From positions 1,364,001 through 1,428,000 of the forward strand of contig NZ_KQ031382.1 in the NCBI RefSeq assembly GCF_000384335.2: 64,000 nucleotides of DNA. Direction: 5' to 3'. The stretch is from Hyphomicrobium sp. 99. Lineage in GTDB: Bacteria > Pseudomonadota > Alphaproteobacteria > Rhizobiales > Hyphomicrobiaceae. The stretch's first letter is position 1. Each line of letters begins with the position of its first letter. Below, piece by piece: positions 41,484 through 58,600 of the stretch. The notes beneath the pieces were generated by a model. It was not told the DNA's origin. It saw only the letters and a list, made by a program, of their open reading frames with translations, and did no database searches. A program made the translations under genes and the position numbers.

Positions 41484-41490
41484 TTAGATT

Positions 41491-42681: not shown

Positions 42682-43835
42682 CAGCGCTTCAGAACGACAT
42701 CGCAGTGACGCGTGGCGCTCAATTCCTCAAAAGTGACCTGCGCGAGAGTGGAGTCGTGCTCGATTCTAAAAATGGTGAAACCGTACGCCTTCAATTCATC
42801 ATAGAACTTTTCGATCGAACCATAAGCACCCGCTAATATGGACGGCGCGAATTCCATCATAATCTGGATGTTCGGGTTTTCACTTAGAAGACGCGTCGCG
42901 CCCTTTAAAATAAACGGCTCTGCGCCCTCAGCGTCAATCTTGATGAAATCAATTTTGGTGCCCGCTGGAAAATAAGAATCCAGCGTTATCGCATTGACGG
43001 CCAACTCTCTAATTGAGTCATTGAATTCCGCGGCAGTGTCGGAAGTCGCAAAAATGCTGCTTGAGCCCATGTAATGGTTATAAATTTTGAAATCGATTGC
43101 CTTGCACTCGCTATATACAGCGCAAGGCACGACCGTGCTTCTCTCCAGGAACCCATTTACCATCAGGTTCCTGTGCGTTATCGCAGAAAGTTCGGGATTG
43201 GCCTCGAACGATACTAGCCGCCCCGATTGGCCAATTAGATCCGCTGCCAGAAGCGAATACCAACCGACATTTGCACCGATGTCGATCACTTTCATTCCGG
43301 GCCTTACCAAAGCTCGGAATACGTTCGTGATCCACTGCTCCCAATATCCATCGAGAAGAAGGTGGGGCGTTAACGAGTAATCGCGCGTGTCGACGTAGAT
43401 CTTGTGTCCATATATCGTTTTGGTGAGCGCTACGTTTTGGCCCAAATAAACGGCCATCCGCGTCTCTTGAATTGCCGGTGCGGCTTTCGGCCGAGCCATT
43501 GCGGAGAAAAGTTTCCGAAATGCTTTGAAATGATCGGATTTCATAATCGAATTATCATGTCCGTCGCGCGCGAATATCACGAATACTTCGTTAGCAAAGG
43601 TGGGCCCCAGATCTCTTAGCAATTCCTCCAACCTAGCGGCACCAATAAGGTCCATCTGACCTTTATGCACCACGAGCAGATCAGGCGTGCCGATAGCAGA
43701 CAGCTGATCGTATGGAAGAATACTGGAAACCAAAGTCCGGAATTCAGCAGGACCCACCGCAAGTTTGTTTGCGATATCGCGACTGGCAACAAATGCCGCC
43801 GCATCTCGCCAGTAGCGGTCGTGAGCGACAGTCAT
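42681..43835 (-). CDS. FkbM-family methyltransferase
   Basis: A 384-residue protein with a C-terminal FkbM methyltransferase domain. The SAM-binding loop is KVIDIGANVGWYSLLAA near 195, followed by LVSFEANPELSAITHRNL and IDFIKIDAEGAEPFILKGA. The N-terminal ~150 residues form a separate region of unknown role. ATG at 43835 is fixed by a 4-bp ATGA overlap with the stop of the upstream glycosyltransferase; the longer frame to 43958 is rejected. FkbM-type enzymes O-methylate sugars or peptides, and here the neighbours indicate a glycan. Confidence 0.87.
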   Translation of the reverse strand: MTVAHDRYWRDAAAFVASRDIANKLAVGPAEFRTLVSSILPYDQLSAIGTPDLLVVHKGQMDLIGAARLEELLRDLGPTFANEVFVIFARDGHDNSIMKSDHFKAFRKLFSAMARPKAAPAIQETRMAVYLGQNVALTKTIYGHKIYVDTRDYSLTPHLLLDGYWEQWITNVFRALVRPGMKVIDIGANVGWYSLLAADLIGQSGRLVSFEANPELSAITHRNLMVNGFLERSTVVPCAVYSECKAIDFKIYNHYMGSSSIFATSDTAAEFNDSIRELAVNAITLDSYFPAGTKIDFIKIDAEGAEPFILKGATRLLSENPNIQIMMEFAPSILAGAYGSIEKFYDELKAYGFTIFRIEHDSTLAQVTFEELSATRHCDVVLKR

Positions 43836-44992
43836 GCCGGGAGACCCTGATCGACATTTCGAGAAGTGGCGCTGTTGGCCCCTATAGCGGACATGAAGTT
43901 GCGCGGCAGATCGATTGGATACCGTGAGGCCATCGCACCTGCACGCTTTTCCTGCCAACGCGTCCTGACTTCACGCAGGGCGCTGGCGGAAAACTCGATA
44001 TCAGGTTCCGCCCAAGAGAGGTTCGTTCCCTGATAGGCGAAGGTTCTGTCTTTGTAAGGAACCAGACGATAGGGGACCGGCACGGAATGCGGGTAGCACT
44101 CCATATAGTCCATGTTTCCGGACCAAGCCGTGGCTAAAGTCGGGACGCCGAGTTCGAGCATCTCATGGATATTCAACCCGTAGCCCTCCGCACGGTGCAA
44201 CGAAAGGTAGACGTCGGCCATGCGTTGAAATGCGGTCATATCTCTGTCGCTGAAGACTTGCTCCACGAGAGTTATGTTTTTCGCCTTCCCAATTTCCCTG
44301 AGGAGTTCTCGCCGTGCAAAGGTCGTATTTTTTTTGAATCGAACCTTCATCAAGAGATGGCAAGACGTGTCGCCTCCGAACGCGAGCGTCCACGCGCGAA
44401 CGTGGGCCAAAGGATTTTTGCGATCCGGGCAGGCGGCAAGATCCATGATCGCCAACCCTAGGAACTGATCCTCTCGCACTCCAAATTCTGCGCGCGACAG
44501 AGGAGAAACCTCAGGACAAACGACGGCATGAGGAACGACTCTGATCGGTAAGTCGGTACCACGCCGCAGGGCGTTTGCGCTGAAGGATGAAGGAGTCCAA
44601 ATCTCGTGGACGATATCTAGGGCGAACTTCCAGTCGCCGGGAAATTGATCGAGCTCCCACACCCAAAGGCCGATCCGGTATGCATTGTGGAACCGGTCCG
44701 GAGGTTCTGCCAGCAGTCGGGGATAGTCCCACGGCTGGCCAAGAATCAGAACCTGATTGCCGTCAGCGTGAGCCGTGCCGTGCTTCAGGATTTGACGTCT
44801 CACCTCATATCGATAGGCACGAGATAATCCGTTGATTGTCTCTGTGTCGCCGATGAAACGCAGCTGTGCGCGAGGATCAAATTCGGCGAATTTCTTGGGC
44901 CATGTACGAGCGAGAGCGTCACCTTGGACTAACCGCCGTTGATACCGGCGGCGTTGCTTGCGCCGCCAGGAAGACAGTACGTGAGAGAACAT
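43832..44992 (-). CDS. GT4-like glycosyltransferase
   Basis: A 386-residue glycosyltransferase of the GT-B fold and first gene of the four-gene operon. Recognisable segments are WELDQFPGDWKFALDIVHEI, WTPSSFSANALRR, and the donor-side motif SLHRAEGYGLNIHEMLELG with TLATAWSGNMDYM. The arrangement resembles mannosyl- or fucosyltransferases of capsule clusters. The sugar is not identifiable. A strongly basic N-terminus (WRRKQRRRYQRRL) may help membrane association. Confidence 0.85.
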   Translation of the reverse strand: MFSHVLSSWRRKQRRRYQRRLVQGDALARTWPKKFAEFDPRAQLRFIGDTETINGLSRAYRYEVRRQILKHGTAHADGNQVLILGQPWDYPRLLAEPPDRFHNAYRIGLWVWELDQFPGDWKFALDIVHEIWTPSSFSANALRRGTDLPIRVVPHAVVCPEVSPLSRAEFGVREDQFLGLAIMDLAACPDRKNPLAHVRAWTLAFGGDTSCHLLMKVRFKKNTTFARRELLREIGKAKNITLVEQVFSDRDMTAFQRMADVYLSLHRAEGYGLNIHEMLELGVPTLATAWSGNMDYMECYPHSVPVPYRLVPYKDRTFAYQGTNLSWAEPDIEFSASALREVRTRWQEKRAGAMASRYPIDLPRNFMSAIGANSATSRNVDQGLPA

Positions 44993-45163
44993 GCTTTGCT
45001 GCGATACTCAGTTCGGTTAGTTCAACTGAACGGTGTGTATAGCCGACGCTGACCTGTCTTGCGCACATAACATCGAGTGATCCACAGCGTTGTGACACCG
45101 TCGATGAGTTTCTACCGACGAGAATGAAGACATCCTCGGCCATCAACTGGCGCGAGATTAAAA

Positions 45164-45420
45164 ATGCGCGTCGACGAAGTCGCTCTCGACGCCAAGATCC
45201 CGCTTGACGACGAGCCCAATCCCAACGCCTTCGCGGTTTCGCCGCCGGGGCTGCTCGGCCGACTGGTGTCCGGCGCGACGATGCGCTTCTCGCGAGATCC
45301 GAAGCCGCGGAAGCCGCCTAGCGTGAAACCGTGGCGCAGCACGAAGACGTGGAAAACGGCGCGGCCTGTGTTGATCGAACTGACCAGCGCTGACATCTAC
45401 CGTCGAGGGGAGAGAAACGG
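45164..45420 (+). pseudogene. Uncharacterised gene fragment with coding-like codon use
   Basis: From 45164 to about 45415 the plus frame has G or C in nearly every third position, unlike the A+T-rich flanks, and reads as a basic, proline-rich segment (ATMRFSRDPKPRKPPSVKPW, then ARPVLIELTSADIYRR). The frame runs into the acyltransferase gene in another phase. It looks like the 3' part of a lost gene. No family was recognised. Confidence 0.4.
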
Positions 45421-46581
45421 ATGCGGGAAGATCGAGTCGAATTCGCAAATGCATTGCGGGGAATCGCTGCCCTTTGCGTGATGACGACTCACATGATGGG
45501 GTTTTGGGGGAATCCGACCTTTGTCGCACAACGCATCAATGCCAATGAAATTGCCCCGCCAGTCGAAATGCCGAACGCGCTTTGGTTCGTGGGCCATTAC
45601 CTATATGCTATGGGCCTAGATCTAGGCTCGTTTGGCGTTGGCATTTTCTTTGTCATCAGCGGCTTTGTTATATCGATATCTCTCGCCAAGACGTCAGTTG
45701 GCGAGTTCGCCATCAGACGATTTTTCCGCCTGTGGCCGACGTATTTGACATGCTTTGCGATAATGCTGCTGTCGATCTATGCGACTGGTTGGTTTTTCGG
45801 CAGAGCGCTTCCATTCGACGAGTTCTCAATCCTCGTTCACCTGTTGCCCGGGCTAAACGAAATTTTCGGAGTGCTGAGCTTAGACGGCATATCGTGGTCG
45901 CTAGCGGTTGAGCTGAAGTTCTATATATTTGCCGCTTTGTGCGCGGGCCTGCTTCGGCGCGCTGATTTGAAGGTGTTCGCCGTCGCAGTTGCCGTTAGCG
46001 CTGGCCCATACCTCTTATGGCATCTGTACCCGAACCGAAATGATCTTGGCCTATTTGGCGTTCGCACGCTTTGGTCATTCGTCTTCTTTGGCGACTTTCT
46101 GCTTATCCTTATGGTGGGCGTCGCGTTCCAGTTTCATTATGCCCGGAAGATCGGCAATGGAACATTTTGCGCTATCGTGGCAGCGATGCTTTCCATCTTC
46201 GTAGCGATCAATCTATTGAACCCGATAATTCTATCGACGAGTCCGGTATGGTCATACGTTGCCGCGGTCGCCGTGTTTTGGGCATGCTATCTCTTGCGAG
46301 ACTACTTCCGCGCAACCGTACCGACGACATTTCTAGCGAACATAAGTTATCCGCTCTACGTCCTTCACTGTTACGCGGGGTGGTGCTTCATGCGGATGCT
46401 GGTGGAGTTTGGACTCTCCTCGAATACGATCGCCATTTTGTACATCGTCGTTTGCTTTGCGATGTCATGGGTGATCCATCGAGTAATCGAGAGGCCATCA
46501 AACCTTTTTGGCGGCGAACTTGCGAAGAAGTTTCGTTTGAAGCCGTATTATCTGGCAGCCACTGGCACCGCAGCCGCTTAA
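45421..46581 (+). CDS. Acyltransferase family 3 membrane protein
   Basis: A 386-residue multi-pass acyltransferase. It opens with EFANALRGIAALCVMTTHMMG, which carries the family's catalytic histidine, followed by GVGIFFVISGFVISISLAKTS, an RRFFRLWPTYL loop, and about ten hydrophobic segments. It should acylate a sugar at the inner membrane. The ATG has GGGGAGAG upstream. It is the only plus-strand gene of element 1 and the last gene before the second att-like core. Together with the sulfotransferase and methyltransferase it suggests a heavily decorated surface polymer. Confidence 0.87.
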   Translation: MREDRVEFANALRGIAALCVMTTHMMGFWGNPTFVAQRINANEIAPPVEMPNALWFVGHYLYAMGLDLGSFGVGIFFVISGFVISISLAKTSVGEFAIRRFFRLWPTYLTCFAIMLLSIYATGWFFGRALPFDEFSILVHLLPGLNEIFGVLSLDGISWSLAVELKFYIFAALCAGLLRRADLKVFAVAVAVSAGPYLLWHLYPNRNDLGLFGVRTLWSFVFFGDFLLILMVGVAFQFHYARKIGNGTFCAIVAAMLSIFVAINLLNPIILSTSPVWSYVAAVAVFWACYLLRDYFRATVPTTFLANISYPLYVLHCYAGWCFMRMLVEFGLSSNTIAILYIVVCFAMSWVIHRVIERPSNLFGGELAKKFRLKPYYLAATGTAAA

Positions 46582-46658
46582 CGTCTCCGCTACCAGTTTT
46601 GGGAACCGGAGCGATGGGTCAGGAAGGGATATTTGGCCATGTCGGACATGCTCGATTC

Positions 46659-46678
46659 GTAGCAACAAATCGTAGCAG
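46659..46678. repeat. Pair of GTAGCA arm-like direct repeats, copy 2
   Basis: GTAGCAA (46659-46665) and GTAGCAG (46672-46678) start 13 bp apart, just left of the second core. Copy 3 has two GTAGCAG motifs with the identical 13-bp step (59511 and 59524). Such iterations suit arm-type binding sites of a tyrosine recombinase. Confidence 0.5.
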
Positions 46679-46718
46679 TCAATGGCTTAGCTTGAATTGG
46701 CGCCCCGTAGGGGACGGG
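46679..46718. repeat. att-like core, copy 2 (junction of elements 1 and 2)
   Basis: The 36 bp at 46679-46714 are identical to 59573-59608, and the right side (through ACGGG at 46718) matches copy 1. This copy therefore combines the left flank of copy 3 with the right flank of copy 1, as expected at the junction of two tandem integrated elements. Confidence 0.75.
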
Positions 46719-46751
46719 GAATAAGACATTGATATTAAACGATAATCGAGG

Positions 46752-46776
46752 CTGCTACTGCTCTCTTGAGTAGCAG
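46752..46776. repeat. 8-bp inverted repeat overlapping the arm-like motif and the transposase stop
   Basis: CTGCTACT (46752-46759) and AGTAGCAG (46769-46776) flank a 9-nt loop. The left arm is the motif conserved 59 bp from the core start. The transposase remnant frame terminates inside it. Confidence 0.5.
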
Positions 46777-47836
46777 GCTTCAGCAGCAAATTCTAGCTTT
46801 AACTGACGCAGTAATAGACAGAGGTAGGCGAAGTCATCCATGCCGAACCGCCCCGCCGCTTTGGCATTTGAGGTAAGTGGTTTCGGTACGTATGGCGTTG
46901 CGCCGATGGCCTCGCAGGCGAGAACCTCCTCGCCGCTGAAGTAGCCGCGATCGGCGAGGACATCGATCTTCTCGACGGCCATGGCCTCCTTTGCCGAGCG
47001 CGCCATGGGAGAAAGCAGCGTCCGGTCGGTCACGACGTTGGTGACGTCATGGGCGACGATCAGATGGTGCTCGGTATCGACCGCCGCTTGCACGTTATAA
47101 CCGACGACGCCGGCGCCACGCATGCTGGTCGCCATTGCCCGGGCGTCGGGATCGGTGAGTGAGATCTGCTGATCCGGCGCTTGCAGAACAGCCGTCTCCA
47201 GCTGTCTGAGTTCGGCAAGCTTGCTCTTCATCGCCGCGATCTTGTCCCGCAGGCGCGAGGCTTTTGTCTCTACGCTTTCACCCTCCTGAAGGTCAGCAGC
47301 CTCTAAGGAAGCGATGTAGCGCTCGATGCTCGCTTCCACCTGCTCCAGGCGCCGCTTGAGCTTGCCCTTCGTGAAGTTGCGGTCGCGCGAGTTGACGCCC
47401 TTGAACTTGGCGCCGTCGATGGCGGCAACAACGGCATGCGAGAAATGGCCTAGCTGGCCGCAGATCACGATGAAGCGCGCGCAGACTGCACGGATCGCTG
47501 TGCTGTTCGCTCTTCTAAAATCGGCGATGGTCTTGAAGTCAAGCACCAAGCGGCCAGTGAGCCACATCAGCTCGACATTCCGGGCCGCCTCGCGCTCCAG
47601 CCGACGGCTCGACTGGATACGATTGAGATAGCCGTAGAGATAGATCTTCAGAAGCGTCGCCGGATGATAGGACGGACGACCGGTCGCCGCTGGTTGAACG
47701 CGTTCGAACCCGAGAGCGGCAAGGTCGAGCTCATCAATGAAGGCATCGACGACACGGACCCGGGGATGTAGTCCTCGAGGCAAACGGGCAACATCGTCCG
47801 CTGGCGGCGATCCTCGCCTTCCACAAATCGGCCCAT
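46755..47836 (-). pseudogene. IS1182-family transposase, truncated and frameshifted
   Basis: The sequence matches IS1182-type transposases: LLKIYLYGYLNRIQSSRRLE, MWLTGRLVLDFKTIADFRR, AAIDGAKFKGVNSRDRNFTK and DVLADRGYFSGEEVLACEA. The real start (MGRFVEGEDRR at 47836) is in another frame from the rest, with a shift near 47760. The C-terminus stops shortly after GRFGMDDFAYL, where intact proteins continue for over 100 residues including the last catalytic acid. Both defects make it inactive. The break lies about 60 bp from the second att-like core. Confidence 0.85.
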
Positions 47837-47890
47837 GTCGGCCTCCCTGTCGGATCGCGGGAAGCATGGACTGATTTGCCGTTTTCACAC

Positions 47891-48411
47891 AGCCACTCCC
47901 AATAGCGGACCTCCCTTGAAGCGGAGGGCTCGGCTCAGCTCGAGTCCTCGCTTTCGTCCGCTCTTAAATCAAGTGCCGACGTTAGAAGCAAAACCCGATC
48001 GGCGGCGACTGCCCCGAAGCAGACCGGTTGCGAGGGAAACGGACTCGACAGCTATCGAATGACGGGCGGTCATCGCCGATGCGGGCTGACGCTTTGAAAG
48101 GTTGCGAGGAATCGTACTAGTCGATCACTCAACGGTGCTGCCTCGATTTTGATCTAGCCAACTTGAGGAAGCGGCATAAAGGATCAATGCACGTCGCCGG
48201 ATACCTGTGCCAGTTACGACGGCGTTCGTGGCCGCCGCAACGAAAGGCAAGAGTAGCAGAACCGCAACGCCATGCGGCGAAATCGAACATGTTGTGAATG
48301 CTGTGAACAATTGGGGGCAGCCGCCTCGCCTTTCCCGCAAAACGGCGCCAGATGGACGTTGGCTGATTCAGCAACTTCGATTGCTCTGTCCAAATTCGGG
48401 GAAGATTCTAA
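47891..48411. other. Leader region of the HPr-rel-A operon
   Basis: About 520 bp between the IS remnant and the first gene of the operon. A plus-strand frame starting at GTG 48207 has moderate codon character (VTTAFVAAATKGKSSRTATP) but runs out of phase into the operon. A 36-codon frame begins at ATG 48187. Either could encode a short peptide substrate, but no signature supports it. The operon promoter must lie here or upstream. Confidence 0.35.
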
Positions 48412-48867
48412 ATGGTAGTGGCTGCCGCCGATATTGGCATCTTAGAGGTCTCAACTCCCGACTGCGTCGCCAACGATTTTGACGGCGAGATCGTGGCACT
48501 GAATTTGTCGAGCGGTGTCTACTGGAGTCTGCGCGATCTCGCGGCCGCGCTGTGGCGGGATGTTACGTCAGGACACAACCCAGCAGCGATCGCAGACCGC
48601 TTAGCTCAGATAAATTCAAACATTGCTCATGAGAGTCATCTCCTCATTGCGAATCTCGTGAATGCTGGCCTGTTGCGCCCATGCAGTGCGAACCCGGTTG
48701 CGCTTGAGGCGAGCGAGACCGTGGCACGTGCAGAGGCGGGCGAACTTGCCTTCACGGTCGAGTCCTATGAGGACATGAAGGACCTTATCCTGGCAGATCC
48801 GGTGCATGATACCGAGGAGCACCTCGGCTGGCCCATCGTACGCAACGACAATGGCGTCGGCGCATGA
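48412..48867 (+). CDS. PqqD-family protein of an HPr-rel-A type system
   Basis: A 151-residue protein whose first ~90 residues form a PqqD winged helix (GEIVALNLSSGVYWSLRDLAAALWRDV, then ANLVNAGLLRP). PqqD-like domains bind the leader of a ribosomal peptide and present it to a modifying enzyme. The C-terminal ~55 residues are acidic and specific to this type. Its ATGA junction with the HprK-like gene and the nucleotidyltransferase later in the operon match the family set catalogued as the HPr-rel-A system, a presumed modification system of unknown product. The start follows GGGGAAG by 6 nt. Confidence 0.82.
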   Translation: MVVAAADIGILEVSTPDCVANDFDGEIVALNLSSGVYWSLRDLAAALWRDVTSGHNPAAIADRLAQINSNIAHESHLLIANLVNAGLLRPCSANPVALEASETVARAEAGELAFTVESYEDMKDLILADPVHDTEEHLGWPIVRNDNGVGA

Positions 48868-49958
48868 TCGCGAGCGCTCTGTCCGGCGTCGCGCAATCTG
48901 AGGCAACCCGGCCAAGCGCACGACAGCTTTTAGACGCGCTTGACTTGTTCACCGCGCGACACGCTGAACGCGCACATCAGGTCCGGGTCCGCGTAGCGGA
49001 TCTGTCCATCCGCCTGTACATGCCATCGGCCGCCATGGCCGACCTTTATGCAGGTCGGCTCGGTGGTGAGATCAACACCTGTACCGGGACGGACGATCTG
49101 CACTTTCACCTCGGTGAGCCAGGCTCAGTCGGCAGCCCAGACGCCGCGAATTTTGCTTCCTACCAATCCCTCGGACCTGATTTCGAGCGGCTTGCCGGAG
49201 AGGCGGGCCTCATCGGTATCGTCGGTCAACCAGACGCGTACAACAATCCAACCGAGCCATGCACGCTTTTCAATCCGCGTACCGGCGTCGGCGTGCAGTG
49301 GCTGACCTCGCTTGCTGACCTGCCACCGTGGGATGCTGGCTCGCCTTTCCGTCTGCTAATCCACTGGGCAACCGCACAGCGCGGATCGCGCATGATGCAC
49401 GCCGGCTCTCTCGTCTCCGGGCATCGGGCCATGCTGCTCGTCGGCGGGGGTGGAAGTGGCAAGTCGGGTACGACGCTCGCGGGCATCGCGTCGGGACTTC
49501 AGACCGTGGGCGACGACTATGTTGTGGTCACGGCCGACTCTGTACCTCGCGTCCATCGAGTCCATCAGTTGCTGAAACAGGACCCCGCCGGTATCAAACG
49601 TGTCCTTGGGCCACGCGAGTTAGAGAAGCCCTTAGCGCTGAATTGGCAGGGCAAGGTCGAAATCGATCCCGAATTATATTTTAAGGGATGCATGGCCGAG
49701 AGCGCTGCCGTTGTAGCGCTCGTGCTTCCCCGGATCGCTCGTGCAGATCAGACGACTTTCGAGCCTCTTCGACCTCAGGATTTATTCCATCACGCAGCCG
49801 CATCCATGTGGCAGCAGCTTCCGGGTGCGCAGAAATCCGGCTTCGTTTTTGCAACGGCACTGACGCGGCGCGTTCCGACGTGGAGCATGAGCCTTTCCTC
49901 GGACCCGTTCGAGATCGGCATTGCGGTACGCCGGTTTCTCGATAGCGGGGTGTCATGA
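48864..49958 (+). CDS. HprK-related kinase A
   Basis: A 364-residue protein with the nucleotide-binding part of HPr kinase/phosphorylase. The Walker A loop GGGGSGKS lies at 194-201 after MMHAGSLVSGHRAMLLV, and GDDYVVV at about 218 corresponds to the downstream acidic region of HprK. The N-terminal ~150 residues are unrelated to canonical HprK. True HprK phosphorylates HPr on serine; relatives in peptide clusters phosphorylate peptide substrates. Both ends overlap neighbouring genes by 4 bp, so it is co-translated with PqqD and a glycosyltransferase. A role in phosphorylating a carrier or peptide is inferred. Confidence 0.82.
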   Translation: MIASALSGVAQSEATRPSARQLLDALDLFTARHAERAHQVRVRVADLSIRLYMPSAAMADLYAGRLGGEINTCTGTDDLHFHLGEPGSVGSPDAANFASYQSLGPDFERLAGEAGLIGIVGQPDAYNNPTEPCTLFNPRTGVGVQWLTSLADLPPWDAGSPFRLLIHWATAQRGSRMMHAGSLVSGHRAMLLVGGGGSGKSGTTLAGIASGLQTVGDDYVVVTADSVPRVHRVHQLLKQDPAGIKRVLGPRELEKPLALNWQGKVEIDPELYFKGCMAESAAVVALVLPRIARADQTTFEPLRPQDLFHHAAASMWQQLPGAQKSGFVFATALTRRVPTWSMSLSSDPFEIGIAVRRFLDSGVS

Positions 49959-50752
49959 CCGCTCGCATAGTCAGCATCATCATACCGATTTTCAACGGTG
50001 AGCGGCACCTTGGGGAAGCGCTGGCTTCGCTAGAAGATGAGCCCGGCCTTCAGCTCGACATCGTCATTGTCGATGACGGATCGACGGATCGTTCGCTGGA
50101 TATCGTCTCTGAAATCAGTTGCCGCGATCAGCGCCTGCGCATCATGAGCGGGCCACATCGAGGCGTCGCCGCCGCGCGCAATATTGGCGTCCAAGCGGCA
50201 CGGGGCGAGTTTGTAACTTTTCTCGATTGCGATGATGTCTGCCCGCGCGGGCGTATTGCGCGCCAGCTCGGAAAGCTTCTCGCCAATCCGGAGCTGACGT
50301 GCGTCGTCGGGCAGACCCTGCTTTTCGAGCAGCTCGACGATGCGCAGTGTCCGTCGCCCGGTTCGCGGAGCGCAAACATGTTGCTGCCGACCTTGCACAG
50401 TGCGCTATTTCGAAGAGCCGTCTTCAGTCAATTCGGGATGTTCGACGAAGAGCTCGCCTTCTCGGAAGACTTAGACTTTTTCTTCCGGCTCGCTGAGCAC
50501 GATGAGCCGCTGCTGGTGGAAGCGGAGATTGCCTCGCTCTACCGCCGGCACGACGGCAATATGACACGCAACGGACGCGCCATTCGCACGTCCACTCTCC
50601 AGGTTCTCAATAAATCGATTGCCCGGCGAAGGGCGATGGGACGGCGTAAGCCGCTGGACTTGTTCTTCGTGCAGCACCAGGAGGCAGAGACTTTGTTCGG
50701 TAGGCCGCCGAGTGATGATGCGCGTGACCGCTCAAAGACAGGGATGCAATGA
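49955..50752 (+). CDS. GT2-family glycosyltransferase (operon copy 1)
   Basis: A 265-residue GT-A glycosyltransferase. It begins IVSIIIPIFNGERHLGEALASL, has the metal motif FLDCDDVCPRGRIARQL near 87 and the acceptor-side FDEELAFSEDLDFFFRLAEHD near 155. No transmembrane segment is seen. Codon use matches the neighbouring operon genes. It overlaps the kinase gene by ATGA and the next GT2 gene by ATGA. It closely resembles the second copy (IVDDGSTD versus VVDDASTD), so the pair probably arose by duplication and then specialised. Confidence 0.87.
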   Translation: MTARIVSIIIPIFNGERHLGEALASLEDEPGLQLDIVIVDDGSTDRSLDIVSEISCRDQRLRIMSGPHRGVAAARNIGVQAARGEFVTFLDCDDVCPRGRIARQLGKLLANPELTCVVGQTLLFEQLDDAQCPSPGSRSANMLLPTLHSALFRRAVFSQFGMFDEELAFSEDLDFFFRLAEHDEPLLVEAEIASLYRRHDGNMTRNGRAIRTSTLQVLNKSIARRRAMGRRKPLDLFFVQHQEAETLFGRPPSDDARDRSKTGMQ

Positions 50753-51498
50753 CCGTTCAAGCTCTCCCTCGGATCTCGGTCATCATGACGACGTATAACG
50801 GGGCCGAATTCGTAGAACAGTCCATAGGGTCGCTTACGGCCGAGGCCGGCGTCGATCTCGATATCGTCGTCGTCGACGATGCCTCGACTGATGGAACGCT
50901 TGCGCGCCTGCGCGATATTGGGGCGCACGATCCACGCATCCGCGTTTTCGCCGGGGAGAAGCGCGGTATCGCCGGATCGCGCAATGCCGGGCTGGCGAAA
51001 GTCAGGCACGAGCTTCTGACGTTTCTTGATCAAGACGATCTTTGCATGCCGGGACGTCTCGCGCGTCAAGCCGCGCTGATAGAGAGAACGCCCGGTGTAG
51101 CGGCCGTCATGGGCGAAACGCTGATGTTCCAGACCCTTGGGGCCGACAGGATGCCTTTGCCGGGCACCAGCACAGCGCGCGTCCTTGTTGTACAGCTCTC
51201 GGCCGGCCTGTTCCGGACAAGCGCCGTCCAGTCCCTTGGGTTCGACAGCACATTCACGATGGGAGACGATTTTGATCTGATCTTGCGCCTGCTTGAGACG
51301 GATCATGAGATCACGGTCGAACGCGAAATTGCGACGTTGCACCGCCGTCACGCCCGAAACACTTCGGGAAATATCGCGGCCTTGCGGCTCGAACTGCTCA
51401 AGGTGTTCCAGGCATCATTGAAGCGCCGCCGCGCTGCGGGACGAGTGGGACCCATCACGCATCCACTGGTGGCCGCGATGTCTCGGGCTGGGAGTTAA
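50749..51498 (+). CDS. GT2-family glycosyltransferase (operon copy 2)
   Basis: A 249-residue GT-A glycosyltransferase homologous to the preceding one. The fold start is ISVIMTTYNGAEFVEQSIGSL, the metal motif is FLDQDDLCMPGRLARQAAL, and the late segment is FDSTFTMGDDFDLILRLLETD. Both copies end in a similar arginine-rich tail (SLKRRRAAGRVGP here; SIARRRAMGRRKP in copy 1), supporting tandem duplication. The sugar donor is unknown. It lies 4 bp upstream of the third glycosyltransferase gene. Confidence 0.87.
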   Translation: MTVQALPRISVIMTTYNGAEFVEQSIGSLTAEAGVDLDIVVVDDASTDGTLARLRDIGAHDPRIRVFAGEKRGIAGSRNAGLAKVRHELLTFLDQDDLCMPGRLARQAALIERTPGVAAVMGETLMFQTLGADRMPLPGTSTARVLVVQLSAGLFRTSAVQSLGFDSTFTMGDDFDLILRLLETDHEITVEREIATLHRRHARNTSGNIAALRLELLKVFQASLKRRRAAGRVGPITHPLVAAMSRAGS

Positions 51499-51502
51499 GT
51501 CC

Positions 51503-52183
51503 ATGTCGGATAACGCGTATGCAGTAATCATCCCCGCATATAACGCGGCGCGCACGTTGGATGAAGCAATCCGGTCGGTGCTTGCACAGACGGTTGCCGC
51601 CAGCGACATCCTCGTGATTGACGACGGCTCGAAAGATGATACGGCCGATATTGCCGCGAGATACGGCGGCACGGTTCGCGTTATCCGGCAAGCCAATGCG
51701 GGGGCGGCTGCAGCGACGACCGCAGGATTGAGGAACGTATCGGCGCCGTTCGTTGCGGGTTTGGACGCCGATGACATTTGGCTGCCTGAGAAAGCCGAAC
51801 GGCAATTGGAGCGATTTGCGCGCGGACCACGCGTTGACGGTCTGTTCTGTCGCGGCCGGCGTTTCCAGCATGGCAGCGATGATCGATCGAGCGGCGCGGT
51901 TTCCGAAGGCCTGTCGCGCTCCGCCATGATGTTGCGCACGTCTGCCGTTGCGGCGATCGGGCCCGTCAACGATCCAGGGGGTGCGCGTGGCCGTGGTGAG
52001 ATGATCGATTGGCTGCAAAGAGGCCGCGAACTCGGATTGATTTTCGAAACGCTCCCGGAGGTGTTGTGGCTCCGTCGGATCATCCCGGGGAGCTTGAGCT
52101 ACGGCTATAACACGATGGCAGATCGTGGATATCTCGACGTTGTCCGTGCCTCGCTCGAGCGGAGGAGGGCGAGATCAACATGA
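51503..52183 (+). CDS. GT2-family glycosyltransferase (operon copy 3)
   Basis: A 226-residue glycosyltransferase, the shortest and most divergent of the three. It has AVIIPAYNAARTLDEAIRSV, VIDDGSKDDTADIAARYGG, NAGAAAATTAGLRNV and the DADDIW metal motif near 92. A late EMIDWLQRGRELGL segment contains the presumed catalytic acid. It overlaps the nucleotidyltransferase gene in an ATGA junction. Three glycosyltransferases in one operon with a peptide-chaperone-like protein are unusual and point to a glycosylated product. Confidence 0.85.
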   Translation: MSDNAYAVIIPAYNAARTLDEAIRSVLAQTVAASDILVIDDGSKDDTADIAARYGGTVRVIRQANAGAAAATTAGLRNVSAPFVAGLDADDIWLPEKAERQLERFARGPRVDGLFCRGRRFQHGSDDRSSGAVSEGLSRSAMMLRTSAVAAIGPVNDPGGARGRGEMIDWLQRGRELGLIFETLPEVLWLRRIIPGSLSYGYNTMADRGYLDVVRASLERRRARST

Positions 52184-53634
52184 GGGTCCCTATATTGAAG
52201 GGGGCGCGGCCGGCCCCTGAGATAGATCTTCTGCTCCAAGCTTGCCTCGCTCCGCCGGATGCAGCACGTGCTGCTTGGCAGCGCTGGCTCAAGAGCCGCG
52301 AACTCGACGATGCGAGTTGGCCTGAAATGCGTATTCTTGCACCTCTTTCGGGTCGCCTGCGGACTCTCGATCCGAACTCAACCTACCGGCCTCGCATCGA
52401 CGGGTTAGCCAAATCCCATTGGACCCAAACCCAGATCATGCTGGGTGAAACGCTGCCGGCCATCAAAGCCCTACGCAAGGCCGGCATCGAATGCATGCTC
52501 ATCAAGGGCGCCGCAGGATACGCAGAAGGATTCGGACCAACGGTTCGTCGTTTGATGGGCGATGTCGACATACTCGTTCGGCAAGAGGATGGGCCGCGTG
52601 CCGCCAGCGTGCTGACAGCAGCAGGTTGGGAGGCAACGAACGGCGATTCTGCTCTCCTACTGCGGCAACTCGCGCCGCTTCGCGCGTCCTCAAATTATCG
52701 TCGGGGCGTTTACGGCGAAGTCGACCTGCACACTCAGGCGTTTCACTTCTGTCGTCGCGACCAAGAACTCGAAAGCGCACTATGGCAAAATTCGAGATTA
52801 ATCTCGTTCGGCGGCACTGACGTTTGCGTACCCTCTTCTGCGGACAGCATTGTGATCAGTCTCGCACACGGCGTGGTCGGCCGCGATGGAGACTGGGCAA
52901 TCGACATCGGTCAGCGCATCAACGCCGGCGGCGTCGATTGGGACCGCACGATCGAGCTTGTCGAGCGCCGAGCCTTAGTTCCATTGGCGCTCGCGGGTCT
53001 CAACTATCTGCACAAGCTTGGCCTCGGTGTGCCGCAGGAAGTGCTGCGCAGACTTGCCGAGACGCCGGTCGCGCCTGGCGTCTGGTTGAAGCATTACGCA
53101 AGCATCCGCCCGAACAGACGAAAGCGCGGATTGCTGCAAAAAATTGCCGACGTATTATCATCGCCGCTCCTGCCGCGTGCCATCTACCATCGGTCGTTTA
53201 AATCCGACAATTTGATCGGAGTTTCACGTGACAATCTTGGCGTTTGGTACCCGCGCCGATGGAAGCGCATACCGCTGGCGCAGGGTCATACGGCAGCGTC
53301 GGTAGGTCATTGCATCGAAATTGATTCTGACCCGAATATAAGGGTATGCGGAGTATCTCTGCGTTTTCCGACTAGCGGCCAATCGAGGAGAGTGTTCATC
53401 GAGGTCGTGTCCGGCGAGAGGGTCATACATCGCCTGCGAGGCCGTTTGCGCTCCCGTGCCGGAAAGCATCAAACCATGCACTTTGAAATTCCGCTCAATG
53501 ATTTGCCCCCCGGTCAGCGCATCGTAACACTTCAGGCCCGCCCCTCTGGCTATGTGTCGTCCGCGGAACCGCATGCTGAGGCAGTGGCAAAGGCAGCGCC
53601 TGCTTTCCAAATAACTGATGCCTGGGCCGCTTGA
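52180..53634 (+). CDS. Nucleotidyltransferase family protein (NTP_transf_5)
   Basis: A 484-residue protein with the NTP_transf_5 domain in its first ~330 residues. The motif CMLIKGAAGYAEGFGP, then RRLMGDVDILV, places the metal-binding aspartates at about D128 and D130. The last ~130 residues form an extra beta-rich domain (VFIEVVSGERVIHRLRGRLR). This family is the third constant partner of HPr-rel-A clusters. By fold it should transfer a nucleotidyl group to a protein, peptide or sugar, but no reaction has been established to my knowledge. It ends the operon; no terminator is obvious downstream. Confidence 0.82.
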   Translation: MRVPILKGARPAPEIDLLLQACLAPPDAARAAWQRWLKSRELDDASWPEMRILAPLSGRLRTLDPNSTYRPRIDGLAKSHWTQTQIMLGETLPAIKALRKAGIECMLIKGAAGYAEGFGPTVRRLMGDVDILVRQEDGPRAASVLTAAGWEATNGDSALLLRQLAPLRASSNYRRGVYGEVDLHTQAFHFCRRDQELESALWQNSRLISFGGTDVCVPSSADSIVISLAHGVVGRDGDWAIDIGQRINAGGVDWDRTIELVERRALVPLALAGLNYLHKLGLGVPQEVLRRLAETPVAPGVWLKHYASIRPNRRKRGLLQKIADVLSSPLLPRAIYHRSFKSDNLIGVSRDNLGVWYPRRWKRIPLAQGHTAASVGHCIEIDSDPNIRVCGVSLRFPTSGQSRRVFIEVVSGERVIHRLRGRLRSRAGKHQTMHFEIPLNDLPPGQRIVTLQARPSGYVSSAEPHAEAVAKAAPAFQITDAWAA

Positions 53635-53649
53635 CATCCGGTTGTTCTG

Positions 53650-54081
53650 CTTGGCCACGCGCGCCAAATCTCGTTGATTTCTTTTCACTGAGAGGACGGT
53701 CGCGTCGCAAACGCCGCAACCGCTTTGGCGCAGCCGTGTGCGGCTTGAGTGAGACGCGCAGGCACTCATTCTTTTCCCGTTAATCACATCGCGCTGGCCG
53801 AACTCCGCCATTGGTCGAACGCCGACCGCTAGCGGTGCTTGTATCGATCGCCTCAGACAAAGATCTATAAGCAATGCCTCGCTGCTCAGTTCGGTAGCAA
53901 GCGAGATCAGGTGTGAGAGGCTTCGCCCCAGACGGTCCAGCCGCCAACTAACCAAAACATCTCCATCTTGTGCGTAGGCGGGAACTTCGTCCTGAGCCGG
54001 GCGACTTCTAATCACGCATGAAACTCCATAGTCACAAAAAATCCGCTGTATCCACTCACTCAAGCGAATCGTGGTCGACAT
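53650..54081 (-). pseudogene. Serine recombinase/resolvase remnant
   Basis: A decayed minus-strand gene just after the operon. The part DGDVLVSWRLDRLGRSLSHL is the diagnostic mid-region of serine resolvases and invertases, and PMAEFGQRDVINGKR corresponds to the downstream LAEFERDLIRER motif. The two are separated by unrelated residues, the catalytic N-terminal serine region is absent, and the C-terminal HTH is broken. It marks the right end of the operon as a past insertion or mobile-element border. Confidence 0.65.
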
Positions 54082-54499
54082 AGATTTTCTGCTGCACTGT
54101 ATTTAACCCTCGCAGCACCTCGCTCCGGCGCGTCTGGCGGCCGGTCGCGAAGGGAGGAGCAGCAGGCGCGCGTGGCGATGGCACCAACGCGTTGCAAATT
54201 GCTTCTGATACCCGCAGTCAGTTTTGGGTGCCCACTTTTTGCTTTCGAATTGAAAGCATGTGATTGCACGTCGCATAGGCTTCCATTTTTGCCGCAAACA
54301 AACGCGCCGAAATATTATCGATCCCCCATATCGATACGATGCCAAGGGGCAAATCAGCGCAAAGGCAGCACACTGATTCTAAGCGGCTGATGCGCGACAA
54401 ATTTTTTTAGGCACGGGGAGAGGGCGGCCACAAAGCGACAGCGCGCGATATCAGATCGAGAATAGCAACAGACATTGGGCACATAACTCGGGGGGCGAT
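54082..54499. other. Upstream region of the chemoreceptor gene
   Basis: A 418-bp stretch with only short, poorly coding frames. It must contain the promoter of the chemoreceptor/cheW pair. A GGGGGG ribosome-binding site precedes the ATG at 54500. No dyad or repeat stood out. Confidence 0.45.
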
Positions 54500-56233
54500 A
54501 TGAGTCACGGTGCGCATTACAACGCGGCGACCGCATCTGACGGCGGATTGGCCGAACGTATGTCTTTTATTCAACTCGACGAAGAGAGATGCAAAAGCAT
54601 CCGTAGCATTAAATCCATCATCGACCGCGAGATGCCCGTGGCGCTCGGCATGTTTTACGAAACGATCCGCAAGACCCCGGAAACACGGAAATTCTTCAAA
54701 AGCGACACGCACATGGTTGCAGCCAAGACGGCCCAGGTCAACCACTGGGCGTCCATCAGCAATGCTGATTTCGACGCACGCTACGTTTCCAATGTGCGCA
54801 GAGTGGGCCAGACTCATGCGCGCATCGGTCTCGAGCCTCGGTGGTATATCGGTGGTTATGCCATCGTGGTCGACCACCTCATTCGTTCGGTCGTCAACGA
54901 CATGTGGCCATCTGGCTTTTCGCTTGGCCGAAAAAAGAATGACTCCGAAGATGTCGGACGGTGTCTCGGTTCGCTCGTGAAGGCCATGATGCTCGACATG
55001 GATTTATCCATTTCCGTCTATGTCGAGGCCGCCGAGGAAGCGAGACGCAAGTATGAGGCAGATGCCGAAGCCGAACGCATCCGCACGGAGCAGGCGAGAC
55101 GCGAGGCGGAGCGCAAAGCTGAAGAGGAAGCGATCGGGCGTGAACGCGCCATGGTTTCCAATTCGATTGGGGCGGCCGTTGCAAAACTCGCCGCCAAAGA
55201 CCTGTCGTTCCGATTGACCGACGATCTTCCTGACGCCTATCGCAAGCTACAAAAGGAATTCAATGCAGCTCTCGAGCAGTTCGATGTGACCCTGCAATCG
55301 GTAATCGCAAGCTCGCAGAAGATGACGGCGGGAACTCACGAGATTGCGGCAGCCGCCGACGACCTCGCTCGCCGTACGGAGCAGCAAGCGGCCAGCCTCG
55401 AAGAAACAGCGGCAGCTCTTGAACAGATCACGATGACCGTAAGAAAGTCGTCGGAGGGCGCCTCCCATGCCCGGGATACAGTGGCAGCAGCAAAGAACGC
55501 TGCGGAATCGAGCCGTGAAGTCGTTCGCCAAGCGGTCGACGCAATGGGGAACATCGAGAAATCTTCAAAGCAGATCACTCAGATTATCGGTGTCATCGAT
55601 GAAATCGCCTTTCAGACAAATCTGCTCGCATTGAACGCCGGCGTGGAAGCCGCGCGCGCAGGCGACGCGGGACGCGGATTTGCGGTCGTTGCTTCCGAGG
55701 TACGCGCCCTCGCACAGCGCTCAGCCGAAGCCGCGAAGGAGATCAAGATGCTGATCTCGACATCGAGCGGACAGGTCGAGCAGGGCGCGCGCTATGTTTC
55801 CGAAAGTGGCAAGACACTCGAGCAGATTATTTCCCATGTCGTCGGGATCAATCAGATGATCGCCGAGATCGCTGGCGCTGCTGAAGAGCAGGCCAGTGGA
55901 TTGCAGCAAATTAACACCGCGATCAACAGCATGGATCAGACCACGCAGCAGAATGCGGCGATGGTGGAAGAAACGACGGCCGCTTGCCACTCGTTGACGG
56001 ACGAGACGAACCAACTTTCAGACCTCATGAGCGAATTCAAGGTCAATCAGAACTCGTCCGTTATGGCGCTGAGGCAAACGTCGGCCCAAATGACGGCGGC
56101 ACGCCAATCACGCCAGAGGCCTACCGAGACAAAGACCAGGCGCGATCTCCGCGCGACGGCTTTGAAAACGACTTCCTCGTCGGGAGGGGCATCCGTTGCT
56201 CGCAAAACCGAGGACGGATGGGAGGAATTTTAA
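54500..56233 (+). CDS. Globin-coupled methyl-accepting chemotaxis protein (soluble)
   Basis: A 577-residue chemoreceptor without transmembrane helices. Residues ~20-180 are a protoglobin sensor: the proximal heme histidine is H106 in GQTHARIGLEPRWYIGGY, matching HemAT-type aerotaxis receptors. A charged coiled coil (~185-225) leads to the signalling domain, with the near-invariant tip IDEIAFQTNLLALNAGVEAA and GFAVVASEVRALAQRSA. It should sense oxygen (possibly NO or CO) and pass the signal through CheW to CheA. The cheW gene follows after 49 bp on the same strand. Confidence 0.9.
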   Translation: MSHGAHYNAATASDGGLAERMSFIQLDEERCKSIRSIKSIIDREMPVALGMFYETIRKTPETRKFFKSDTHMVAAKTAQVNHWASISNADFDARYVSNVRRVGQTHARIGLEPRWYIGGYAIVVDHLIRSVVNDMWPSGFSLGRKKNDSEDVGRCLGSLVKAMMLDMDLSISVYVEAAEEARRKYEADAEAERIRTEQARREAERKAEEEAIGRERAMVSNSIGAAVAKLAAKDLSFRLTDDLPDAYRKLQKEFNAALEQFDVTLQSVIASSQKMTAGTHEIAAAADDLARRTEQQAASLEETAAALEQITMTVRKSSEGASHARDTVAAAKNAAESSREVVRQAVDAMGNIEKSSKQITQIIGVIDEIAFQTNLLALNAGVEAARAGDAGRGFAVVASEVRALAQRSAEAAKEIKMLISTSSGQVEQGARYVSESGKTLEQIISHVVGINQMIAEIAGAAEEQASGLQQINTAINSMDQTTQQNAAMVEETTAACHSLTDETNQLSDLMSEFKVNQNSSVMALRQTSAQMTAARQSRQRPTETKTRRDLRATALKTTSSSGGASVARKTEDGWEEF

Positions 56234-56282
56234 CCCGCATCGATCCATGACCGTAGATCGAAGCCGGATCCGAGGCTGAACA

Positions 56283-56750
56283 ATGATCGAGAAGCAAATG
56301 ACTGAGGGAAGCAGAACTCTCGAGGTTTTGGCGTTTCGCGTAGGCAACCAGGACTTCGGTATCGACGTCGTGGCTGTGCGGGAGATCCGTGGCTGGACCC
56401 CGGCCACTCCGCTACCTCACGCGCCGAGCTTCCTCTGCGGCGTGGTCAATCTGCGTGGCATCGTGCTTCCGATTGTCGATCTCGCGGCCCGGCTGGGATT
56501 TGTCCCGGCCGAACCAACTGCGCGTCACGCCATCGTAGTCACTCAGCAGGGCGACCAAGTGATCGGCCTGCTCGTCGATGGAGTTTCCGACATTCTGACC
56601 ATCGATTTGACGCAAGTTCAGCCGACGCCCGAAGTCGCCTCTGAGATCGCAAAGTCATTCGTGCGCGGCGTCATCCCGATCGACGGCCGCATGATCAGCC
56701 TTCTTGCTTTAAATACAGTGTTGCCGGCAGTGGATCAGCACGCCGCCTAG
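56283..56750 (+). CDS. cheW: CheW-like chemotaxis adaptor
   Basis: A 155-residue CheW-domain protein that links chemoreceptors to the kinase CheA. Diagnostic segments are [40 protein letters not shown] and [17 protein letters not shown], covering both beta-barrel subdomains. The gene begins 49 bp after the globin-coupled receptor and should be expressed with it. No cheA, cheY or cheB lies nearby, so signalling must join a chemotaxis system encoded elsewhere. The start could be M1 (56283) or M7. Confidence 0.92.
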
Positions 56751-56776
56751 CGGGTACCTCGTAGCCTATCGGCAGC

Positions 56777-58600
56777 TTATCGGGCTCGCCTCCACTTGAT
56801 GCCAGCTAAGGAAGGCAATGCTTCCTTGGGACTAGGCAATCCGAAATAATATCCTTGTGCTCCTCGGCATCCGTTGTTCACGAGAAAGTCCAATTGGAAG
56901 CAGTTTTCGACGCCCTCCGCGAGAACCTCCAGACGCAGACTCCGGCCGAGACCGATAATGGCGGCGGCAATGGCCTGGGCCGCACCTCCGGATTCCAAGT
57001 CCGAGACGAAACTGCGGTCGATCTTGAGTTTATCGATCGGCAGCTTTTGCAGATACGACAACGACGAATAGCCGGTGCCGAAATCGTCCACGGCGAGACG
57101 CAATCCCAAGGCCTTTAGAGCCTGAAGGATGGCCACAGGCGCTTTGCCTTGGCCCATGAGCGTGCCCTCGGTTATCTCGAGTTCGATCACGGAAGGGCTG
57201 AGATCGAACTCTTCCAGGATACTTTGAAGGGTGTCGACAAATCCGGCATGGTGGAGCTGCTGAGCCGACACATTGATCGCCATAGTCGTTAGCTCCGCAC
57301 CACTGGCAAGAAGCTCTTTCATATCGCGGCATGCGGTCCGCAGCACCCATTCACCGAGAGGAACGATAAGGCCTGTCTCTTCGGCAACCGGTATGAAATC
57401 CCCGGGCGGCACGATAGTGCCGTTCGCAGTCTTCCAGCGAACGAGAGCCTCGAAACCAGTCACCTTGCCGTCCGGCATAGAAACGAGAGGCTGATAGTGG
57501 AGAATGAACTCTTCGCGCTCGAGAGCTTGCCTCAGCTGCAAGTCAGCCGAAAGCCGCGTGTTGGCTGCCTCGGTCAAGCGGGTTGAGAAGAAGCGATACG
57601 TGCCCTTACCGGCGCGCTTTGCATGATAGAGCGCCGCGTCTGCGTACTGTATCAACGAAGCGGCATCCCGGCCGTCATCAGGAAATAGGCTGATCCCGGC
57701 GCTTGCTCCGAGCCACACCTGCCGTCCCCCGGAAAGAAAATACGGCTGGCATAACTGGTTTAATATCCGGCCGACGAGATCACCGAGCATAGAGCGCGGC
57801 GTGCTTTCGCAAAGCAGCCCAAACTCGTCGCCTCCAAACCGGGCAACCATGTCCGAGGTTCGCACACATGAGGAAAGCCTCTCGGCAGCGCGTATCAAAA
57901 CCTCGTCTCCGGCGGTATGTCCGAGGCTGTCGTTGACAAGCTTGAATCGGTCAAGACCGACGAAAATGACGGCGCCGGTTGATCGTTTCGCACGTGAGCG
58001 CACAAGCGCTTGATCGAGCCGTGACGTGAGAAGGCGTCGATTTGGAAGGCCGGTCAGCTCATCATGTTGCGCACGACGCTCGAGTTCGCGCTGTGACGAT
58101 TTGATCGGAGTGAGGTCGGCGCTGCTGCCGACATAGTGCGTCAGCTGGCCATCCTCGGAACGGACGGCGCTGATTGTGAGAAGTGCCGGATAAATATTCC
58201 CGTTCTTCTTCCTATTCCAGATTTCGCCGTGCCAATAATCATTCGCTTTGAGGCAATTCCACATTGCCTCGTAAAACGACTTCGGATGCATACCAGATTG
58301 CAGAACGCGCATATTCTGGTTCCGGATATCGTCAGTCGAGTATCCCGTTATCCGCGAGAACGCAGCGTTGGCGCTGATGATGGTGCCGCTGGCATCGGTT
58401 ATGATGACCGCTTCGTGCGTACACGAAAGGATTGTCGCGACGAGTTCTTGCTCGACAGTAAGCGGTAGCCTGCTCCCGAATGCCCCGGAGGAGAGAACGT
58501 TTCTATTCTTCTCATAGTGCTCTCTTCCGGGGCCGAAGCTCATTTGGCAATTCCCACTGCAAGCAATCGCCGGGAGTGTGAGTGGGATATGGTGAAGCAA
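56777..58600 (-). CDS. PAS-GGDEF-EAL cyclic-di-GMP protein
   Basis: A 607-residue soluble signalling protein. A PAS domain at ~50-165 (AVIITDASGTIISANAAFSRITGYS) is followed by a GGDEF domain at ~175-340 with the intact ARFGGDEFGLL active site. An EAL domain at ~350-600 has FEALVRWK and DDFGTGYSSLSYLQKLPIDKLKIDRSF. Both catalytic motifs look intact, so it may make or degrade cyclic di-GMP under control of the PAS domain. An alternative start is M20 (58543). It converges with cheW and is divergent from the MarR gene. Control of motility or polysaccharide output would fit its neighbours. Confidence 0.92.
   Translation of the reverse strand: MLHHIPLTLPAIACSGNCQMSFGPGREHYEKNRNVLSSGAFGSRLPLTVEQELVATILSCTHEAVIITDASGTIISANAAFSRITGYSTDDIRNQNMRVLQSGMHPKSFYEAMWNCLKANDYWHGEIWNRKKNGNIYPALLTISAVRSEDGQLTHYVGSSADLTPIKSSQRELERRAQHDELTGLPNRRLLTSRLDQALVRSRAKRSTGAVIFVGLDRFKLVNDSLGHTAGDEVLIRAAERLSSCVRTSDMVARFGGDEFGLLCESTPRSMLGDLVGRILNQLCQPYFLSGGRQVWLGASAGISLFPDDGRDAASLIQYADAALYHAKRAGKGTYRFFSTRLTEAANTRLSADLQLRQALEREEFILHYQPLVSMPDGKVTGFEALVRWKTANGTIVPPGDFIPVAEETGLIVPLGEWVLRTACRDMKELLASGAELTTMAINVSAQQLHHAGFVDTLQSILEEFDLSPSVIELEITEGTLMGQGKAPVAILQALKALGLRLAVDDFGTGYSSLSYLQKLPIDKLKIDRSFVSDLESGGAAQAIAAAIIGLGRSLRLEVLAEGVENCFQLDFLVNNGCRGAQGYYFGLPSPKEALPSLAGIKWRRAR

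Follow-up and report, generated by a model that had tools for sequence, protein, structure and literature searches.

PqqD-type domains serve as peptide-binding elements in the pathways that make ribosomally synthesized and post-translationally modified peptides (RiPPs). Such RiPP recognition elements (RREs) are treated in PMC12710340 and PMC7470986. For lasso peptides, PMC9266682 describes tailoring kinases whose His-Lys-Asp-Asp motif is catalytic and which phosphorylate the C-terminal Ser of the precursor, and it reports that an annotated nucleotidyltransferase, PsmN, is required for the one or two hexoses found on the phosphorylated Ser of pseudomycoidin. Two further described systems are HPr-rel-A, in which a PqqD-type protein, an HprK-related kinase, and an NTP_transf_5 protein adjoin, and the SynChlorMet cassette (ScmC, ScmD), which by NCBIfam names holds an HprK-like and PqqD-like pair. 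Here we analyze a six-gene cassette of Hyphomicrobium sp. 99 (genome size, 4.1 Mb) that combines these families with three family 2 glycosyltransferases (GT2) and may attach a phosphate-linked glycan to a peptide or protein. It lies in a window of 64,000 nucleotides, the whole stretch of DNA analyzed (contig NZ_KQ031382.1, positions 1,364,001 to 1,428,000). The near-invariant C-terminal tail of its PqqD-like protein is a new element; the rest of the cassette is a variant of known PqqD-HprK sets. A literature search with little coverage of subscription journals matched at least four of the five family names together in lasso-peptide work only. The same search returned no paper for the tail strings or for the HPr-rel-A names and NTP_transf_5/PF14907, which is weak evidence.

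Gene content and the conserved tail of the PqqD-like protein

Six ATG-started open reading frames (ORFs) follow one another on the + strand of the window, the first starting at 48412 and the last ending at 53634. ATGA overlaps of 4 bp join four of the five pairs of neighbors and a 4-bp gap separates genes 4 and 5, a layout that an earlier note on this DNA had given exactly to the base.

48412..48867, + strand: gene 1, PqqD-like (RRE-type) protein of 151 residues with a linker and a conserved C-terminal tail
48757..48834, + strand: the conserved tail, gene 1 residues 116-141, VESYEDMKDLILADPVHDTEEHLGWP, delimited by alignments
48864..49958, + strand: gene 2, HprK-like P-loop kinase of 364 residues
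49398..49517, + strand: kinase motif stretch with H179, a P-loop with K200 and S201, and D217-D218, invariant in 27/27 aligned sequences and aligned to HprK of known structure
49955..50752, + strand: gene 3, GT2 glycosyltransferase A (PF00535) of 265 residues with DCDD and EDLD motifs
50749..51498, + strand: gene 4, GT2 glycosyltransferase B (PF00535) of 249 residues with a DQDD motif
51503..52183, + strand: gene 5, GT2 glycosyltransferase C (PF00535) of 226 residues with a DADD motif
52180..53634, + strand: gene 6, NTP_transf_5 protein (PF14907) of 484 residues, ~200 of them outside the Pfam domain
48192..53638: DNA block common to four other Hyphomicrobium genomes at ~89-92%, its ends varying slightly by genome

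The tail follows the PqqD domain and a variable linker, and its consensus reads F/Y-x-D-L/M-x-D/E-L-x-x-x-D-P-I/V-H-D/E-x5-G-W-P, with the core DP[IV]H[DE]-x5-GWP. It is the best conserved part of the protein: across 30 diverse sequences the commonest residue has a mean frequency of 0.741 in the tail (residues 116-141), compared with 0.469 in the PqqD domain (residues 15-88), 0.305 in the linker, and 0.193 after the tail. Eleven columns of this alignment are fully invariant, and seven of them (L125, D129, P130, H132, G139, W140, and P141) belong to the tail. The tail has no conserved Ser, Thr, Tyr, Asn, or Lys, and the invariant side chains open to modification are those of Asp, His, and Trp. 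In 35 tails, 4 to 10 variable residues follow the GWP. The PqqD domain itself scores 22.5 bits against PF05402, slightly under the cut-off of 23.4, and the Pfam label falls on 9 of 22 relatives. The best NCBIfam profile for gene 1 is that of the lasso PqqD protein, at 23.4 bits against a cut-off of 70.

A query limited to gene 1 residues 1-95, so that the tail played no part in selecting proteins, returned 22 matches, 20 of which carry the tail motif; the other two, of 108 and 98 residues, look cut or disrupted. The tail is present on the PqqD protein in all 78 cassette loci that have one, planctomycete records included, and the strong genomic matches that were read all lie on PqqD proteins. 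The tail profile matched 10 of 99 genomes of the family and 7 of 397 of the phylum (the own genome included in both), 4 of 199 in the phylum of a planctomycete metagenome-assembled genome (MAG), that MAG included, and 12 of 12 cassette genomes, 11 with a single copy and the twelfth with three, one of them weak. Seven of the ten family matches are strong. The three weak ones (E 0.002-0.03) were dropped: one is an unrelated protein (L105), and DP[IV]H occurs in none of the three loci. The only free tail among the 80 loci described below lies at a contig edge (L046). Another 26 short database proteins match the tail, many of which look like cut-off PqqD ends; three of them (P0139, P0140, and P0142) could be separate peptides.

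Several variants of the tail were recorded. Three distant versions (L132, L154, and L155) have one residue fewer before GWP, and another (L156) has GWK in place of GWP, followed by a longer charged extension. The genome with three tail-type PqqD genes is an alphaproteobacterial MAG (G525; loci L124, L132, and L133), whose third tail is weak and ends early (LLALDPPLPA), without GWP.

The HprK-like kinase and the transferases

Gene 2 has no Pfam match of its own. Its family profile aligns with HprK of solved structure over the P-loop region (E 0.053), and the residues H179, K200, D217, and D218, invariant in all 27 aligned sequences, line up there with the His, Lys, Asp, and Asp positions of that enzyme. 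The protein resembles HPr kinase/phosphorylase in this, and the four residues are also those of the His-Lys-Asp-Asp motif that PMC9266682 names for the lasso-peptide tailoring kinases. HPr itself is an unlikely partner, because the genome encodes HPr elsewhere on the same contig, at 3.71 Mb, which is 2.3 Mb from the cassette, together with a canonical-type kinase that passes the PF07475 cut-off. In one database protein of 250 residues (P0110, on a 3.3-kb contig) the kinase runs into a GT2 domain in a single frame, as either a fusion or a sequencing slip.

The three glycosyltransferases score 94.7 to 102.7 bits against PF00535 and have intact DxD-type motifs; a C-type copy, corresponding to gene 5, sits before the NTP_transf_5 gene in many cassette loci. 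Gene 6 scores 88.5 bits against PF14907 over residues 51-280 (cut-off, 31.2), and its Asp-x-Asp pair D128/D130 and third Asp, D182, are conserved in 16 or more of the 17 sequences aligned. In none of the six proteins was a membrane-spanning-like stretch found (the highest Kyte-Doolittle mean over 19 residues is 1.47). These profile scores and alignments uphold the families named in the earlier note. Compared with four other Hyphomicrobium copies, every one of the six genes has a ratio of nonsynonymous to synonymous substitution rates (dN/dS) of 0.13-0.31, a sign of purifying selection, and therefore all six look functional.

The cassette as a recurring and portable unit

A kinase-profile scan over one genome per species yielded 123 relatives, the best 80 of which were kept, so that all counts are conditional on the kinase seed. 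Matches were taken anywhere in a locus; adjacency of the genes was seen separately, from gene order. The kinase and at least one GT2 occur in all 80 loci, the PqqD protein with its tail in 78, NTP_transf_5 in 78, and all four in 76. Short of the full set are L012, which lacks PqqD, L046, at its contig edge, and L022 and L027, which lack NTP_transf_5. One to four ORFs per locus match the GT2 queries. Together with the dN/dS values, this recurrence takes the operon-like packing noted earlier beyond chance.

By record title, the hosts include Mesorhizobium, which is the largest group, together with Aminobacter, Kaistia, Bauldia, and Rhodobacteraceae; two records are betaproteobacterial, two are planctomycete MAGs, and one is a MAG labeled Chlorobiaceae. 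The closest named relatives are Hyphomicrobium, a genus in which the kinase occurs in 5 of 21 other genomes, in one of them at 36% identity. The DNA block shared with four other Hyphomicrobium genomes has its left end at 48014-48245 and its right end at 53638-53685, depending on the genome; within 44000-58000 no similarity extends beyond it, save for 147 bp at 47997-48143 in a single genome. Among the 40 largest clusters of flanking genes, judged by eye, recurrence is mainly among Mesorhizobium loci, and the clusters that cross genera are widespread transporter types only (duplicate or short loci, L001-L008, L089, L091, and L092, were excluded here and from the PqqD alignment). Since the full set is found in 76 of 80 loci while flanking families do not follow it across genera, the cassette itself is what is kept. 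Spread by horizontal transfer is probable.

A transposase gene lies upstream at 46755-47888, and an antisense ORF (53224-54081) overlaps the end of gene 6; the start of this ORF, beyond 53634, resembles by eye the N terminus of a serine resolvase. Both fit a mobile setting. On a Crinalium plasmid (NC_019735, cyanobacterium), the tail is carried by a PqqD protein whose gene neighbors encode NTP_transf_5, an HPr kinase, FkbM, and glycosyltransferases; an ABC transporter gene lies a few genes further on. This locus (L158; NC_019735.1, 5896-17248) is an enlarged version of the cassette, with a second NTP_transf_5 gene and oxidoreductase genes besides those just named.

Other arrangements were seen in individual hosts. 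A Bauldia litoralis MAG (L012 and L061) has a second kinase-NTP_transf_5 pair without PqqD, and its sole tail match is in the other cassette, which suggests action in trans. The Kaistia-type loci (L015-L017, L050, and L052) are rearranged and partly divergent, with an extra gene of ~320 residues whose copy in L015 matched no NCBIfam family at E 0.001. Elsewhere in the window are a methyl-accepting chemotaxis protein with a protoglobin sensor domain (54500-56233) and a B12-binding radical SAM protein with DUF4070 (29284-30933).

Comparison with described systems

The earlier note had labeled this operon HPr-rel-A. The side-by-side placement of PqqD, HprK-related kinase, and NTP_transf_5 in the window is an architecture shared with that system, but membership is rejected by profile scores and by the differently built genuine loci. 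Gene 2 scores 28.7 bits against TIGR04352 (27.5 in the genome search), far below the cut-off of 200, and gene 1 is not listed for TIGR04353 (cut-off, 35 bits) at E 0.01, whereas the PqqD protein beside a true HPr-rel-A kinase scores 51 bits. The TIGR04352 cut-off was exceeded in 36 of the 249 genomes sampled from a phylum, and from these, 20 loci were read at ~3-4 kb and 5 at 15-16 kb. No ORF matching the tail was found in either set (0/20 and 0/5), and in the five longer loci the three GT2 queries matched nothing, including between kinase and NTP_transf_5. In these five the kinases are 287-307 residues long, against 364 in the window, the PqqD proteins are short and tailless (88-116 residues, the one of 88 assigned by position only), and the NTP_transf_5 proteins have 370-410 residues. 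All five (L159-L163) also differ from the cassette in a small protein of 159-241 residues, with a twin-arginine-type start by eye, encoded directly upstream of PqqD. It is a candidate substrate of the HPr-rel-A system.

The lasso-peptide tailoring sets (PadeK and ThcoK; PsmK and PsmN) resemble the cassette in pairing a His-Lys-Asp-Asp kinase with a nucleotidyltransferase-type protein and in having a PqqD-type B1 protein, whose profile is the one that gene 1 fits best. They differ in that the cassette has no B2 protease nearby and no precursor was found, while the GT2 enzymes and the PqqD tail are additional. Transglut_core3 (PF13471), the B2 protease domain, has no match in the own genome. It has a match in 8 of 27 tail-bearing genomes (6 over cut-off), always either on a different contig or at a distance of over 100 kb from the tail. 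On these grounds a remnant of a lasso cluster was rejected. No lasso cyclase of the asparagine synthase type was seen among the scanned window ORFs around the cassette, a genome-wide search not having been made. Relatives of the cassette proteins match the SynChlorMet profiles weakly (16.5-19.4 bits against cut-offs of 100-125), and these profiles are not among the matches listed for the window's own proteins.

That the locus is an ordinary HPr-rel-A member, or the leftover tailoring half of a lasso-peptide cluster, is accordingly highly improbable: the three families do occur together in HPr-rel-A and the lasso profile is the best for gene 1, but all scores against these systems fall far under their cut-offs, genuine HPr-rel-A loci lack the tail in 20 of 20 shorter and both the tail and GT2-query matches in 5 of 5 longer cases, and no B2 protease domain accompanies the tail.

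Search for an acceptor peptide

The earlier note had proposed looking for a constant short ORF near the PqqD and HprK genes. We compared 3134 ORFs of 18-150 residues, located at most 1500 bp from 81 cassettes or in the gaps inside them, for families, labeling them by genus for five groups and otherwise by single locus. Thirty-two families span at least two labels, and 2 span three. In the 12 of these 32 that were read, eleven proved to be frames inside longer genes, nearly all of them in Kaistia-type loci, and one is an Arg-rich match at inconsistent positions. A conserved separate short peptide gene beside the 81 cassettes was thus not found among the families read, and a separate short precursor ORF was rejected. 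The outcome was negative for a constant ORF as a separate gene; what was sought may instead be fused, as the constant, peptide-like tail of the PqqD protein.

Proposed function and rival explanations

Our tentative reading, to which we assign a probability of about 0.42, is that the locus encodes a self-contained enzyme set that builds a phosphate-linked glycan on a peptide or protein. In this scheme, the HprK-like kinase would phosphorylate the acceptor. The NTP_transf_5 protein and one or more of the soluble GT2 enzymes would then add a sugar (or nucleotide) to the phosphate, and further GT2 action would extend it. We infer this chain from the kinase motif, the PsmN precedent, the Asp set of NTP_transf_5, and the DxD-type motifs of the GT2 enzymes. 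The PqqD-like protein would be the hub, its PqqD domain acting as the peptide-binding-type part, and the near-invariant tail would be a recognition peptide to which the enzymes of the cassette dock; docking is the preferred role because the tail has no conserved hydroxyl residue. The acceptor would be a peptide or protein encoded elsewhere. Of the glycosylated, phosphorylated, or nucleotidylated peptide or polymer suggested earlier, the kinase motif and PsmN tentatively support a phosphorylated and glycosylated peptide or protein.

Several points weigh against this proposal. Neither an acceptor nor, among the families read, a short ORF conserved beside the cassettes was found. According to PMC9266682, a host enzyme may add the sugar of pseudomycoidin, and the parallel between PsmN and gene 6 is tentative. 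GT2 enzymes act in ordinary surface-sugar pathways too, and glycosyltransferase and acyltransferase genes form a sugar-type region at 40167-46581, though past a transposase gene. The last two points favor the view that the GT2 and NTP_transf_5 proteins make or decorate a surface carbohydrate or glycolipid, with the kinase phosphorylating a sugar or regulating enzymes and no peptide acceptor involved. The one to four GT2-query ORFs in each locus and the FkbM, glycosyltransferase, and oxidoreductase genes of the cyanobacterial locus are consistent with it as well. We regard it as doubtful: the recurring unit includes no further sugar-polymer gene, none crosses genera in the flank clusters read by eye, and without a peptide it is difficult to account for a PqqD-type protein in 78 of the 80 loci.

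The missing precursor could also mean that the tail itself serves as substrate, the PqqD protein being a recognition domain fused to a peptide whose own tail the kinase and transferases modify, in which case no separate precursor gene is needed. That no separate short ORF was found beside the cassettes agrees with this, and the tail is nearly invariant, has a single copy in 11 of the 12 cassette genomes searched, and holds in the window an L-x-x-P element (L127-P130). Recognition sequences of the form W/Y/LxxP/L/I are described for several RREs in PMC12710340. Yet the lasso-peptide kinases of PMC9266682 act on Ser, whereas the tail conserves no Ser, Thr, Tyr, Asn, or Lys, leaves Asp, His, and Trp as its modifiable invariants, and is followed by variable residues after GWP. 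We consider this explanation unlikely. A bolder form, in which the PqqD protein would be a one-piece precursor with a built-in leader and acceptor shared across phyla, modified in cis or in trans into a phospho-glycosylated carrier protein, possibly on Asp, His, or Trp, seems quite unlikely.

Significance

PqqD, HprK-related kinase, and NTP_transf_5 commonly occur as a set, as the 36 of 249 genomes over the TIGR04352 cut-off illustrate. The 26-residue tail offers a concrete handle on what such sets act on or through, as it can be deleted, swapped, synthesized, or used as bait. If the cassette does place a phosphate-linked sugar on a peptide, the case of pseudomycoidin would widen to a cassette present in Alphaproteobacteria, Betaproteobacteria, planctomycetes, and one cyanobacterium.

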